Source of the DNA: Spiribacter curvatus
GTDB taxonomy: Bacteria; Pseudomonadota; Gammaproteobacteria; Nitrococcales; Nitrococcaceae
Direction: 5' to 3'
Assembly (NCBI RefSeq): GCF_000485905.1
Contig: NC_022664.1
Location: 496,001-560,000 of the forward strand
DNA: 64,000 nt
Of this stretch, positions 4,173 through 43,395 are shown piece after piece; the first letter of the stretch is position 1, and each line of letters opens with the position of its first letter. The position numbers were made by a program, and so were the translations under genes. The notes beneath the pieces are model-generated. The model had not been told where the DNA came from. It did no database searches and saw only the letters and a list, made by a program, of their open reading frames with translations.

Positions 4173-5378
4173 ATGGTGAATCCGGTTGAGATGGAGCAGG
4201 GTGATCAGGCCGAGGCGCCGCTTTTCAGTCCGTCTCTGCAGGCGATTCCGATGCCCGGGATCCGGCGGATGATCAATACCGCTGCGGGCATGGATGACGT
4301 TATCCATCTGTCCATCGGTCAGCCCGACTTTCCGACGCCGCAGCACATCGTTGATGCCAACATCGACGCGCTGCGCGAGGGTAAGACTGGGTATACGATG
4401 GATGCAGGTCTGCCGGAACTGCTCAGTGAGCTGGCCCGCTACTACGGTGAGCGCTATGACCGGCCGCTGACCGAGGATAATTTCCTCGTCACCACGGGAG
4501 CGACAGAGGCAATGTACCTGGCGCTGACGGCAACCGCGGCGCCGGGTCGCCAATTCATCGTCACCGACCCGACGTTCCTGCTGTATGCGCCGCTGATCCG
4601 CATGAACGGCGGCGAGGTCAAGGTGATTCCGACGCGCCCGGAGCATGGTCATCAGGTCGACCCGCAGGAGGTGATCGACGCGATTGGCATGCGCACATTC
4701 GCGATCGTGCTCAACTCCCCGAGCAATCCGAGCGGGGCCGTCTATCCGCGCGAGACCATCGAGGCGATCGTCCAGGAGGCAGCGTATCGCGGTGTCTATG
4801 TGTTCGCCGACGAGGTCTACGATCACATCCTGCTCGATGAGGGAATGGAGTTTCCCAGCGTCATCAACTGCGCCTCTGATCTCGACCATGTCATGTCGGT
4901 GTCGAGCTTCTCGAAAACATTCAGCATGGCGGGCTTCCGGATCGGCTGGATGATCTCCAGCCAGGGCGCGATCAAAAAGCTGCGCCGCTACCATATGTTT
5001 ACAACCACGGTGGCAAGCACGCCGGCGCAGTGGGCTGGAGTGGCCGCGCTCCAGGGCAATATGGCCTGTGTGGATGACATGAACGCGGAGTATCGCCGCC
5101 GTCGTGACCGGGTGGTGGAACTGGTCAGCGAGACACCGCACCTCACGGGGTACGTTCCTCAGGGCGCGTTCTACATCTTCCCGTCGCTGCCGCCGCATAC
5201 CGACGCCACCGATCTGTCGTTGCGGATGCTTGAGGAGACCGGGGTGTGCGTGATCCCGGGCGATGCCTTCGGGGATACCTGCAGCAACGCCATCCGGATC
5301 AGTTTCTCCAACTCGATGGAAAACATCGAAGAGGCATTCGCCCGCATGCAGCCATGGCTGGCGAAACAGAGTTTCTGA
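4173..5378 (+). CDS. pyridoxal phosphate-dependent class I/II aminotransferase
   Basis: A 401-residue fold-type I aminotransferase. PLP contacts are visible: Asn185 in NSPSNPSG, Asp213 and Tyr216 in FADEVYD, Schiff-base Lys248 in SSFSKTFSMAG, and Arg256 in FRIGW; a C-terminal Arg in IRISFSNS should bind the substrate carboxylate. The start at 4173 is chosen because AAAAGGGGA lies 8 bp upstream and the homologous region begins shortly after; the frame is open far upstream but that stretch is antisense to the hydroxyacid dehydrogenase. It resembles the aspartate aminotransferase-like group, but the amino acid used is not clear. The stop codon abuts the stop of the convergent nitrilase fusion with no gap. 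Confidence 0.88.
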   Translation: MVNPVEMEQGDQAEAPLFSPSLQAIPMPGIRRMINTAAGMDDVIHLSIGQPDFPTPQHIVDANIDALREGKTGYTMDAGLPELLSELARYYGERYDRPLTEDNFLVTTGATEAMYLALTATAAPGRQFIVTDPTFLLYAPLIRMNGGEVKVIPTRPEHGHQVDPQEVIDAIGMRTFAIVLNSPSNPSGAVYPRETIEAIVQEAAYRGVYVFADEVYDHILLDEGMEFPSVINCASDLDHVMSVSSFSKTFSMAGFRIGWMISSQGAIKKLRRYHMFTTTVASTPAQWAGVAALQGNMACVDDMNAEYRRRRDRVVELVSETPHLTGYVPQGAFYIFPSLPPHTDATDLSLRMLEETGVCVIPGDAFGDTCSNAIRISFSNSMENIEEAFARMQPWLAKQSF

Positions 5379-39920: not shown

Positions 39921-40408
39921 GCGCTGCGCCCATGGACTGCCTTCCGGTCATCCGGCCCATGCGGCCGCGGGATGTCACCGCGGTGTACGGCGTAGAGTCG
40001 AATGCCTACGACTATCCCTGGGCGTCGAACATCTTCCGCGATTGCCTGCGCATGGGGTACGAGTGCTGGGTGCAGCTGGCCACCGATCGGGTGGTTGGCC
40101 ACGTCGTCCTTGCCATGGGGCCCGGAGAGGCACACGTGCTCAACCTCGCGGTGCATCCTGACTGGCATGACCGTGGGTTCGGTCGAGCCCTTCTCGAACA
40201 GGCCCTGAGCCGTGCCGAGGAACTGGGGGCTGAGTCGGTGTTCCTGGAAGTGCGGCCCAGTAATGCACCGGCGGTGCATCTCTACTCAGGCTTTGGCTTT
40301 CGCCGTGTCGGCCGTCGGCCGGGTTATTACCAGACCGCGACGGGCCGTGAGGACGCGCTGGTCATGCGTTACGACCTTCGGGAGGTCGCACCGGTCGGAC
40401 GGCGATGA
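39917..40408 (+). CDS. rimI: ribosomal protein bS18-alanine N-acetyltransferase
   Basis: A 163-residue GNAT acetyltransferase. The acetyl-CoA loop is the V-x-P-x-W-x-x-R-G-F-G-R-A-L-L region near residues 78-93, and the family features NAPAVHLYSGFGFRRVGRRPGYY at the C-terminus match RimI, which acetylates the N-terminus of ribosomal protein S18. ATG 39917 overlaps the UDG stop. A UDG-RimI arrangement is common in proteobacteria. Other GNAT substrates cannot be ruled out. Confidence 0.85.
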   Translation: MSAAPMDCLPVIRPMRPRDVTAVYGVESNAYDYPWASNIFRDCLRMGYECWVQLATDRVVGHVVLAMGPGEAHVLNLAVHPDWHDRGFGRALLEQALSRAEELGAESVFLEVRPSNAPAVHLYSGFGFRRVGRRPGYYQTATGREDALVMRYDLREVAPVGRR

Positions 40409-41664
40409 GCGACGCGGCCGGGCAGCGCCGGGTGATCGGGTCCTGGGCGCTCTATGACTGGGCGAACTCGGCGTTTGCCACGGTTGTGATGGCGGGATTG
40501 TTCCCGATCCTGTTCCAGGACTACTGGAATGCCTCGGCGACGCCGGCGGTCGCTAATCTGCGGCTGGGCTGGGCGAACGGCCTCGCGAGTCTGGTCATCG
40601 TGCTCATTGCACCGCTCGCCGGCGCCATTGCCGACCGTGCCGGCCGGCGCAAGGCGGCGCTGCTCGGGTTTGCCTTCCCGGCGGCGACAATCACCGCCTT
40701 GCTGGCCCTTGTCCCCGCGCAAATGGGTTGGCTGGCGGCGTTGCTGTTCGGGCTCGCGACCATCGGCTTTATGGCTGCCAATCTCTTCTATGATGCGCTG
40801 CTGGTGGGTATTGCTCCGCCCGAGCGCTGGCATGCGGTATCCGGTTTCGGGTTCGGGCTCGGGTATCTTGGCGGCGGATTGCTTTATCTCGGTTGTATCG
40901 TCGCAGTGATGCAGCCGCACTGGTTTGGCCTGGCGTCGGGCGTTGATGCAGCCCTCGCGGCATTCGTCGTCACCGGGGTGTGGTGGGCCCTGTTCGCGCT
41001 GCCGCTGGCATACAATGTGCCCGAGCCGCCTGTTCAGTCGCCCCGCTCGGCGGCCGTCTCCGGTGGGCTGCGCCAGCTGCGCTCGACGCTGATCCATCTC
41101 CGTGCCTACCGCCCGGTGTGGCTGTTCCTGCTCGCCTACTTCCTCTATATCGACGGCGTGGGGACGACCATCCGCATGGCGGTGGCCTATGGCCGATCGC
41201 TGGGCTTTGAGCAGAACGATCTGATGCTCGCGCTGCTGATCACGCAATTCGTTGGATTTCCGGCGGCGCTCTTCATGGGGACCATTGGTCAGCGCATCGG
41301 TGCCCGCCGTGGCATCCTGATGGGCCTGTCGCTGTACATTCTGATTGCCGCCTGGGGCGCTTTCATCCACTCGCCCTGGGAGTTCTATGTCATTGCCGGG
41401 CTGGTTGGTGTGGCGCAGGGCGGTGTTCAGGCCCTGAGCCGGTCGTTCTATGCCGGATTGATTCCCGCCAGTCGTGCGGCTGAGTTCTTCGGCTTCTATA
41501 ATGTGCTTGGTAAATCGGCTGCCCTGATCGGTCCACCGTTGTTTGGTGCCCTGGGTGTCTGGTTGGGAGATGTGCGCTATTCGATGCTCGCACTCATTGC
41601 GCTGTTCCTGGCCGGCGCACTCTTGCTCATGCGTATCGATTCCGAGGAGGATGACCCGAAATGA
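40405..41664 (+). CDS. MFS transporter, UMF1/Atg22-like
   Basis: A 419-residue membrane protein with about 12 hydrophobic segments. The N-terminal SWALYDWANSAFATVVMAGLFP and the loop GAIADRAGRRK are the marks of the UMF1 (vacuole effluxer Atg22-like) family of the major facilitator superfamily. The substrate of bacterial members is unknown. It is coupled to rimI and to the DUF2970 gene by 4-bp ATGA overlaps. Confidence 0.88.
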   Translation: MSDAAGQRRVIGSWALYDWANSAFATVVMAGLFPILFQDYWNASATPAVANLRLGWANGLASLVIVLIAPLAGAIADRAGRRKAALLGFAFPAATITALLALVPAQMGWLAALLFGLATIGFMAANLFYDALLVGIAPPERWHAVSGFGFGLGYLGGGLLYLGCIVAVMQPHWFGLASGVDAALAAFVVTGVWWALFALPLAYNVPEPPVQSPRSAAVSGGLRQLRSTLIHLRAYRPVWLFLLAYFLYIDGVGTTIRMAVAYGRSLGFEQNDLMLALLITQFVGFPAALFMGTIGQRIGARRGILMGLSLYILIAAWGAFIHSPWEFYVIAGLVGVAQGGVQALSRSFYAGLIPASRAAEFFGFYNVLGKSAALIGPPLFGALGVWLGDVRYSMLALIALFLAGALLLMRIDSEEDDPK

Positions 41665-41888
41665 CGGACCCGCAACCATCCGAGAACCAGAAATCCCGTG
41701 TCACACTCTGGCAGGCCGTCAAGAGCACCGCCGCCGCGGCTTTTGGTGTCCAGTCCGAAGATGTCCGCCAGCGGGACTTTGCCAACGGTAATGCGGGCAG
41801 CTTCATCATCGCTGGCATACTCTTTACGGTGCTGTTCGTGATCGTCCTGGTGGTGATCGTCAATCTGGTACTGAGCCAGGCCGGCTGA
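41661..41888 (+). CDS. DUF2970 domain-containing small membrane protein
   Basis: A 75-residue protein with a soluble N-terminal half (LWQAVKSTAAAAFGVQSEDVRQRDF is the DUF2970 signature) and one membrane segment (about 48-71). Function unknown. It starts with a 4-bp overlap with the UMF1 transporter, so it may be an accessory of that protein. Its last 29 bp overlap the 3' end of the symporter gene on the other strand. Confidence 0.8.
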   Translation: MTDPQPSENQKSRVTLWQAVKSTAAAAFGVQSEDVRQRDFANGNAGSFIIAGILFTVLFVIVLVVIVNLVLSQAG

Positions 41889-43254
41889 CCGTCGGGCTGT
41901 AGCGGGCTACAACGGCGGTGACGACCGCCGAGGCGCTGAGTGCGCCCAGAAATGGGCCAAGAGTGGGCGCCCCCGCGGGAAAGCTCGCCGCCAACAGGCC
42001 AGCGCCCAGGCTGCCACCCGCCAGCGTGTCGGGCAGGACCGCGCCGATCAGCCCGGCAAGCGCCCCTGTAATTGCGGCACGGGGCGGCACACGGTCGGAC
42101 AGACCGCTCAGCAGTGGAATAACGGCAGTGGCGCAGAGTAGGTCCGCGATCAGGAAAAGCCGGAGCACCGAGACCTGCTGCAGCGCGACGATCACAACCG
42201 GCACCATCAACAGGGCCGACAGCCAACGCGCACCCCGCAGTCCGATCTGCCCGCTCTCGGTGACGCCGAGCGACACCAGGGCGTTCTGCAGGGTGTCCAC
42301 AGACGAGGCTACAAGGGTGATCCCGAGGATCAGTGCGGGCAGCGTCAGCCAGCCGGGCGCGTCACCGATCAGGGCGAAGAACGGGATCGGAGGCGTACCC
42401 AGCGGTAGTCCACGCGCCGCGGCGAGGACGCCTGCGGTGCCGAGGATGGCGACCACAACAACCGTGCTCAGGCCGCCGACCAGCGCACCACGGTGCAGCG
42501 CTCGATCGTCACTGGCGGCCCATACGCGCTGCCAGTAGCCCTGATGGAATAGGTTGGCGGCGGTGACCGCAATGATCAGCGTCAGCGCCACACTGAGGGC
42601 GCTGCCGAGAGGCGTGGCGGGCAGATTGCTGTCGCGGCCGACGGCTGGCGTTGGCGCGAAAACGAGGGCGGCCATGCCCACGGTAGCGATCAGGGCAATC
42701 AGCAGAGCTGCCTGCCAGCGATCGGTGATGAGGCTTGCCCGCAGCCCGCCGGCGGCCGTGTAGACGAGCGTCGTCACCGCGACGGCAATGATCGCATAGC
42801 GCCCATCCACATCGGACAGCAGCTCCGTGATGGCACCCACCGCAGTGAGCTCAGCAGCGAGGAAGCAGAGCATGTAGAGGACCGATAGGACCGCTACCCA
42901 GGCACGGAAACCGGCGCCGAAGCGGCTGGCGGTAAACTCCGTCAGACTGCGTCCGGTCGGCAGCCGCCGGCGTATCGCCGGGCCAACCAGACCGAGAATG
43001 ATGAACGGAAGCGCGGAGCCGATGGCATATCCCGCGATGGCGACCGGGCCGACGAATGCGCCGATTTCCGGTGGCGCGAACAGGATCCACGCCCCCATGC
43101 CGGAGGCGAGGAAGGACAGCCCGAGTGTCGTCCCGGACTGCGTGCGTCGCGCGGTGACGTAGTCGTCGAGTCCCCCGGCGTGACGGGCACTCAGCCCGAG
43201 CAGGACAAACACGATGAGTGCGGCAATGATCGCCGCAAGGGTCAGGCTTGGCAT
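41860..43254 (-). CDS. sodium:solute symporter under TPP riboswitch control (ThiV-like)
   Basis: A 464-residue sodium:solute symporter (SSS) family protein with about 13 membrane segments. The substrate region LSFLASGMGAWILFAPPEIGAF and RSLTEFTASRFG fit the family. A TPP riboswitch directly precedes the start codon, so the cargo is very likely thiamine or a precursor such as HMP or thiazole; PanF-like symporters of this kind have been predicted as ThiV. The start ATG 43254 is fixed by GGAGG 9 bp upstream, inside the aptamer. No thiamine biosynthesis gene is nearby. Confidence 0.85.
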   Translation of the reverse strand: MPSLTLAAIIAALIVFVLLGLSARHAGGLDDYVTARRTQSGTTLGLSFLASGMGAWILFAPPEIGAFVGPVAIAGYAIGSALPFIILGLVGPAIRRRLPTGRSLTEFTASRFGAGFRAWVAVLSVLYMLCFLAAELTAVGAITELLSDVDGRYAIIAVAVTTLVYTAAGGLRASLITDRWQAALLIALIATVGMAALVFAPTPAVGRDSNLPATPLGSALSVALTLIIAVTAANLFHQGYWQRVWAASDDRALHRGALVGGLSTVVVVAILGTAGVLAAARGLPLGTPPIPFFALIGDAPGWLTLPALILGITLVASSVDTLQNALVSLGVTESGQIGLRGARWLSALLMVPVVIVALQQVSVLRLFLIADLLCATAVIPLLSGLSDRVPPRAAITGALAGLIGAVLPDTLAGGSLGAGLLAASFPAGAPTLGPFLGALSASAVVTAVVARYSPTVSRPGSVPD

Positions 43255-43342
43255 GTCGCGCTTCCTCCGCCGGTATCATCCGGTTCAGGTTCCAGGGTCA
43301 GCGCTCGCTGCGCACTCTCAGTCCGAAGACTCCCCTGGCGAC
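43255..43342 (-). ncRNA. TPP riboswitch (THI element)
   Basis: Reading the minus strand, a closing stem GTCGC (43342-43338) pairs with GCGAC (43259-43255). Inside are CAGGGGAGTC, the invariant CTGAGAG (43321-43315), GACCCTGGAACCTGA and CCGGATGATACCGGCGGAGGA, the full conserved THI-box order. The GGAGG ribosome site (43268-43264) is part of the conserved 3' core and the closing stem ends at the base before ATG, so TPP binding should directly block translation. No terminator hairpin is needed. Confidence 0.93.
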
Positions 43343-43366
43343 GTCAGTTCAGATTGTTTCGACAGG

Positions 43367-43395
43367 AGTATGCCCGCGGTGGTCCGTAGCTGCAA
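43367..43395 (-). promoter_or_regulatory. promoter of the TPP riboswitch-symporter transcript
   Basis: On the minus strand TTGCAG (43395-43390), a 17-bp spacer and CATACT (43372-43367). The predicted start near 43360 gives a leader of about 106 bases that contains the whole aptamer. Just upstream, GATGCG-AAG-CGCATC (43402-43416) is a short perfect hairpin of unknown meaning. Confidence 0.55.

Follow-up and report, generated by a model that had tools for sequence, protein, structure and literature searches.

The symporter gene at positions 41860-43254 on the reverse strand of the window (the whole stretch of 64,000 nucleotides of Spiribacter curvatus DNA analyzed here) is best explained, with a probability of roughly 0.7, as encoding a ThiV-type, Na+-coupled importer of HMP, the pyrimidine half of thiamine, or of a close vitamer such as AmMP. 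This reading brings together a genus in which thiC was not found but the thiazole branch and the joining enzymes were, and a TPP aptamer that would hold the Shine-Dalgarno sequence of the gene within its P4 and P1 helices. The carrier appears to be one more ThiV, which most likely imports HMP and is governed by an unusually compact RNA switch, with a ribosome-binding site predicted to lie inside the aptamer as against an extrapolated spacing of 52-198 nt at thiC-linked loci. The SSS fold family, the riboswitch, the monocistronic arrangement, the loss of genes and the putative placement of the ribosome-binding site within the aptamer are all read from sequence. The thi gene content of the genus and the riboswitch at the carrier point to the pyrimidine half as the cargo, rather than to thiazole and probably not mainly to thiamine, with transport presumably directed inwards.

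A symporter gene alone behind a TPP riboswitch

The elements of the locus, with their positions in the window and the basis of each assignment, are the following.

41860-43254, reverse strand: sodium:solute symporter classed as ThiV-type, 464 aa, ATG start (ORF list, Pfam, relatives, AlphaFold)
41661-41888, forward strand: DUF2970 gene, convergent, with a 29-base overlap with the 3' end of the carrier gene (family search)
40405-41664, forward strand: MFS/ATG22-like gene, convergent, beyond the carrier stop codon (ORF list)
43244-43346, reverse strand: TPP riboswitch aptamer, RF00059, the model extending 11 bases into the coding sequence (covariance match)
43338-43342, reverse strand: 5' strand of the P1 helix, GUCGC (predicted fold)
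43255-43259, reverse strand: 3' strand of the P1 helix, GCGAC, immediately before the ATG (predicted fold, alignment)
43264-43268, reverse strand: Shine-Dalgarno core GGAGG, 9 bases before the ATG (sequence)
43264-43266, reverse strand: AGG of the Shine-Dalgarno core, forming the 3' strand of P4 (predicted fold)
43287-43289, reverse strand: CCU of P4, partner of the Shine-Dalgarno AGG (predicted fold, alignment)

The carrier is an SSS symporter, as originally predicted, since it matches the Pfam SSF family (PF00474) at 43.1 bits, over the cut-off of 22.8, and adopts the SSS fold in its AlphaFold model (the best of five reaches a pLDDT of 76.3 and the other four 56.5-68.8; pTM 0.81). The match to the NCBIfam 'sss' superfamily model, at 57.4 bits, falls under its cut-off of 184. 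A structure search with the model returned CHT1, DUR3, vSGLT and SiaT as SSS-fold matches; the structure-library matches listed include no carrier of thiamine or HMP, which excludes nothing. The Ser-Ser pair of TM8, S317-S318, is invariant in all 95 rows of a carrier alignment (15 rows from relatives and 80 from named genomes, with four genomes included twice). This pair would correspond to the sodium site of SSS symporters, and the coupling of transport to Na+ is putative.

The next two genes downstream lie on the forward strand, convergent with the carrier gene, which therefore stands alone behind the riboswitch, in agreement with the claim that it is the only gene so placed. The TPP riboswitch itself was confirmed at 43244-43346 (E 2.1e-8; 56.5 bits, where the gathering score is 54.3), a match that barely exceeds the threshold when taken alone and is made secure by the relatives. 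The interval first assigned to the whole unit, 41860-43395, captured the observation correctly, with an upper bound that takes in 49 bases upstream of the aptamer.

A putative ribosome-binding site within the aptamer

In the predicted fold, the bases preceding the start codon belong to P1 and the AGG of the Shine-Dalgarno sequence to P4. We aligned 38 aptamer sequences: that of the window plus 37 others, picked for variety from a set of 79. The three P4 pairs are identical in all 38 sequences, P1 is paired in 98.9% of cells and the structure as a whole pairs in 92.2% of cells, compared with 30.0-41.5% when the partners are slid. Support for the RNA structure comes from this constancy and not from covariation, which adds little: of 26 pairs, the 12 that belong to P2, P4 and P5 are invariant and those of P1 nearly so, and these helices accordingly give no covariation signal. 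The P3a arm, in the form drawn here, is paired in only 62.6% of cells, and the bare fold energy of the aptamer is no better than that of shuffled sequences (z 0.41).

The start region of 69 of the 80 carrier loci from named genomes presents the motif GGAGGAAGNGCGA, followed by C or T and then by the start codon. A TPP-core pattern, applied as a regular expression and not as a covariance model, was detected upstream of the carrier in 67 of the 80 loci, and two of the 13 pattern-less loci scored over the Rfam threshold, bringing the riboswitch total to 69/80. The riboswitch and motif sets differ by two loci, L172 and L178. At the latter (Marinobacter sp. SS5-14b, 4884-4994) the aptamer has lost its 5' part and no riboswitch is detected by Rfam, while the 3' stretch bearing the Shine-Dalgarno sequence is kept, together with its start position, before a TTG start codon. 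This element is probably a decayed riboswitch, and the retention of its 3' stretch is as expected if that stretch constitutes the ribosome-binding site. Neither the pattern nor Rfam identified a TPP riboswitch at ten further carrier loci, all in Marinobacter (L116, L117, L142, L143, L146, L154, L161, L165, L170 and L173).

The spacing between aptamer and gene was estimated for 30 of the 52 riboswitch hits among relatives, using query proteins that did not include ThiE and extrapolating each start from a single reference. ThiC was the best downstream match at 20 of the 30 loci, with an extrapolated start 52-198 nt past the aptamer. The carrier was found at three loci, at extrapolated offsets of -10, -10 and +4, and a short-chain dehydrogenase at another three, at 71, -1 and 65; ThiG accounted for one locus, and three gave no match. 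The data argue that the 3' part of the aptamer is itself the predicted ribosome-binding site of the carrier gene. TPP would then most likely act on translation directly, with no expression platform apart from the aptamer: at high TPP levels the ligand-bound aptamer would sequester the site in P4 and P1 and translation would stop, and at low levels the site would be free. Rodionov and colleagues reportedly proposed, for some genes, that TPP elements cover the site directly. A similar arrangement is described for the preQ1-I type III riboswitch, in which the Shine-Dalgarno sequence contributes to sensing of the metabolite; that riboswitch, which has a different aptamer and ligand, has been studied by structure and function (PMC10622847), whereas the action of the switch proposed here is deduced. 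With its compact layout, the locus would lend itself to a simple test of whether an aptamer can control translation by itself.

Distribution of the carrier and its riboswitch

The comparative analysis covered 59 relatives, including 14 genomes of the same genus (probably Spiribacter), of which six are in 1-3 contigs and nine reach a completeness of 90% or more with contamination of 5% or less. Close homologues of the carrier, with 57-100% identity, were identified in 15 of the 59: 11 of the 14 genus members and four genomes outside the genus (G015, G017, G018 and G024). Any further matches in this set had 33% identity or less. A TPP match lies at the start of the carrier gene in 14 of these 15 relatives; in G024, the only TPP match is on a contig other than that of the carrier. 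A single TPP riboswitch was found in every genus member, and in all 11 carrier-bearing members it overlaps the start of the carrier gene.

A wider set was obtained from a scan of named genomes, in which 80 of 335 relatives, including halomonads, Marinobacter, Halopseudomonas and others, contributed a carrier locus. Judging by equal thiG places, four of its genomes (G059-G062) correspond to genus members G010, G013, G002 and G009. The neighbours of the carrier differ between genera, with two halomonads sharing the upstream gene, in the seven of 80 loci that were read, without family search. None of thiG, thiS and thiC was found within flanks of up to 5 kb a side, some shorter, at the 80 loci, and the riboswitch is hence what links the carrier to thiamine. 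Adjacency of the SSSP gene to thiG has been reported for several Marinobacters (PMC4260697), an arrangement not reproduced within those flanks.

Thiamine gene content and the cargo of the carrier

The original prediction, which named thiamine, HMP or thiazole as possible cargoes, also pointed to the thi genes of the genome as a check, and these proved informative. Searches for thiC (PF01964) did not detect the gene in any of the 14 genus genomes, but did so in 13 of the 14 genomes used as controls and, over the full set of 59 relatives, in 37. In contrast, thiG, TMP-TENI/thiE and a ThiD-type kinase (Phos_pyr_kin) are present in all 14, as are matches to thiL, 13 of them over the cut-off and the remaining one weak, in the 74% complete G007. 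The genome of the window (1.93 Mb, single contig) carries thiS directly before thiG and, upstream, a gene for an FAD oxidase whose match to ThiO is under the cut-off. Within a search that covered thiC, thiG, thiS, thiE, thiL and the ThiD-type kinase, only the pyrimidine branch would appear to be missing. This strongly favors the pyrimidine half as the cargo and makes thiazole an unlikely one, so that the precursor part of the original prediction holds in a narrower form.

It is well established that the ThiD-type kinase phosphorylates HMP, that ThiE joins it to thiazole and that ThiL finishes TPP. In the proposed mechanism, the carrier would import HMP or a close vitamer, which would pass through the ThiD-type kinase to ThiE, be joined there to home-made thiazole and be converted by ThiL into TPP. 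Uptake of the thiazole half would be compatible with the riboswitch taken by itself, and we consider it exceedingly improbable given thiG in 14/14 genus genomes, thiS beside it in that of the window, and HMP synthesis as the missing part.

Import of whole thiamine, or of thiamine and HMP alike, with the thiazole and coupling genes as a leftover or a second option, is a more serious contender, though still an unlikely one. ThiV is counted as a thiamine carrier in a reconstruction of gut microbes (PMC6593275), and McRose et al. propose thiamine or HMP for this carrier type (PMC4260697). Moreover, thiC was detected in 43 of the 50 carrier genomes tested from the 80-locus set, which would be compatible with a general thiamine-salvage gene, indicates that in this wider set the carrier is not tied to an HMP need and, together with the three thiC-less genus members that lack the carrier, speaks against an HMP-only reading. 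Against whole thiamine as the main cargo stands the retention of thiG and thiE in 14 of 14 small genomes with thiC in none; a small genome importing the whole vitamin would hardly need thiS, thiG and thiE, and HMP would be favored for this reason. In addition, SAR11 bacteria with the same gene pattern are reported to have a requirement that exogenous thiamine does not meet (PMC11452348).

The SSS family transports a wide range of substrates, and the carrier might move another solute handled by its relatives, such as proline, pantothenate or urea, its tie to TPP being indirect. The solved sequences nearest to it are indeed DUR3 urea carriers (profile E 5.3e-10), and CHT1 and DUR3 give the top folds by Z. 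These proteins share the fold of the carrier (VIA Z 23.8-32.8, rmsd 3.4-4.0 Å over 393-440 residues) at only 16-19% identity, and have other substrates. An unrelated cargo is very improbable with the one TPP riboswitch found in the genome placed on the carrier in 11 of 14 genus members, and with the same association at 69 of 80 loci among relatives.

The preferred reading, import of HMP or a close vitamer, is matched by a recurrent gene pattern in which thiC is not found and both thiG and the riboswitch-carrier are kept. This pattern is observed in the genus, in G018, which lies outside it and also has thiE, and in draft genomes of Halomonas (SSL-5 and H. fontilapidosi; G077, G107). The two drafts are among the seven genomes of the 50 tested in which thiC was not found, the others being the four genomes shared with the genus set and a possibly incomplete Competibacteraceae bin, in which thiG was not found either. 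Loss of thiC is not general among carrier-bearing genomes, as G015, G017 and G024 have both genes. In Marinobacter similis A3d10 (L146), thiC appears in four pieces (G086:C1:2872164-2873502), reflecting either sequencing error or a broken gene.

Comparison with known systems

The carrier is of the published ThiV/SSSP type, a class assigned here from its SSS family and the TPP riboswitch at the gene, and not from a sequence clade. SAR11_0811 of SAR11 and thiV of Methylobacillus are reported to share both features, and SAR11 is described as lacking thiC while keeping thiG and thiE, as does the genus analyzed here (PMC11452348, PMC4260697, PMC10881298). In the Pelagibacterales the ThiV/SSSP gene is reported beside tenA (PMC10881298), whereas the carrier gene of the window stands alone. 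A model of HMP import has been published for SAR11 (PMC11452348, PMC10881298, PMC4260697), and HMP uptake has been measured in SAR11 cells, with ThiV as the best candidate carrier (PMC11452348). The view that the cargo of such carriers is poorly established hence needs revision as regards HMP uptake, and stands insofar as the listing of ThiV as a thiamine carrier (PMC6593275) leaves the cargo disputed. A signature for HMP/thiamine carriers has been described as Tyr, an acidic residue and Phe-His at SiaT positions 78, 139 and 254 (PMC11452348). The candidate residues for it in the carrier, Y76, E135 and F236-H237, fitted to SiaT numbering by offset and context and not by residue alignment, are invariant in 95/95 rows, with Glu at E135 where the legend of the signature gives Asp (PMC11452348). 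In our alignment these residues are not unique to the carrier family: the Tyr and His recur in PanF, and the Phe in PutP.

Escherichia coli PanF and PutP belong to the same superfamily and resemble the carrier in their N-terminal half, with 25% identity over 284 positions and 30% over 185, respectively. The TM1 and TM6 motifs of the carrier, GAWILFAPPE and NLFHQGYWQR, are absent from both proteins in the alignment, and we know of no riboswitch link for either. The original description of the carrier as PanF-like is consistent with a report that calls thiV homologous to panF (PMC2211319), and applies at the superfamily level only, given the identity of 25% over 284 positions.

These results would extend the SAR11 pattern, in which a riboswitch-controlled ThiV supplies an HMP auxotroph, to what are probably Spiribacter, small-genome bacteria of salterns, and predict that these strains depend on neighbors for the pyrimidine. 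Our literature search found no paper joining Spiribacter, thiamine and auxotrophy; one paper among the matches listed contains Spiribacter, thiamin and HMP, in passages that concern other motifs. Halomonads and other cultured strains among the carrier-bearing relatives would be suited to tests of ThiV cargo.

Genus members without the carrier

In three genus members (G003, G007 and G011, the last 99% complete) neither thiC nor the carrier was found. Another route for HMP thus exists in the genus and could exist in the genome of the window, which has five matches to the ThiY-like family PF09084. The one TPP riboswitch of these genomes precedes a short-chain dehydrogenase gene, at the following positions.

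G011, L001 1659-2429: riboswitch-linked short-chain dehydrogenase
G007, L007 478-1242: riboswitch-linked short-chain dehydrogenase
G003, L009 672-1436: riboswitch-linked short-chain dehydrogenase

The G007 protein matches NCBIfam NF006393 over its cut-off. The name oarX has been used for a THI-linked reductase; no paper tying oarX to thiamin was found in the literature search. G008 encodes the carrier and, elsewhere, a 75% identical relative of the dehydrogenase. Its one TPP riboswitch is at the carrier, and none was seen in the 200 bases before the dehydrogenase gene. The protein most similar to the dehydrogenase in the genome of the window is 35% identical.

The distribution and layout described above can be accommodated by a broader proposal, to which we give about even weight. 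The thiV-linked aptamers would constitute a distinct, self-contained TPP switch, with sensor and expression platform in a single element of ~95 nt whose conserved 3' core serves as ribosome-binding site, travelling with the carrier gene between neighborhoods in halophilic gammaproteobacteria. The carrier would since have disappeared from part of the genus, where a TPP switch instead precedes the short-chain dehydrogenase.

Two families were considered as alternative routes for HMP and set aside. CytX/NCS1 carriers (PF02133) are found in four of the 14 genus genomes, that of the window not among them, and do not explain G007 and G011, the match in G003 being partial. ThiY-like proteins (PF09084) match in all 14 genus genomes, weakly in G003, G007 and G011. 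Of the five PF09084 matches in the genome of the window, the two that were checked are sulfonate-like and below all the binding-protein cut-offs shown. A PF09084 binding protein with a TAT signal is encoded together with an ABC ATPase at L194 484-2334 (G000), and, the TAT signal apart, reaches none of the NCBIfam cut-offs shown.
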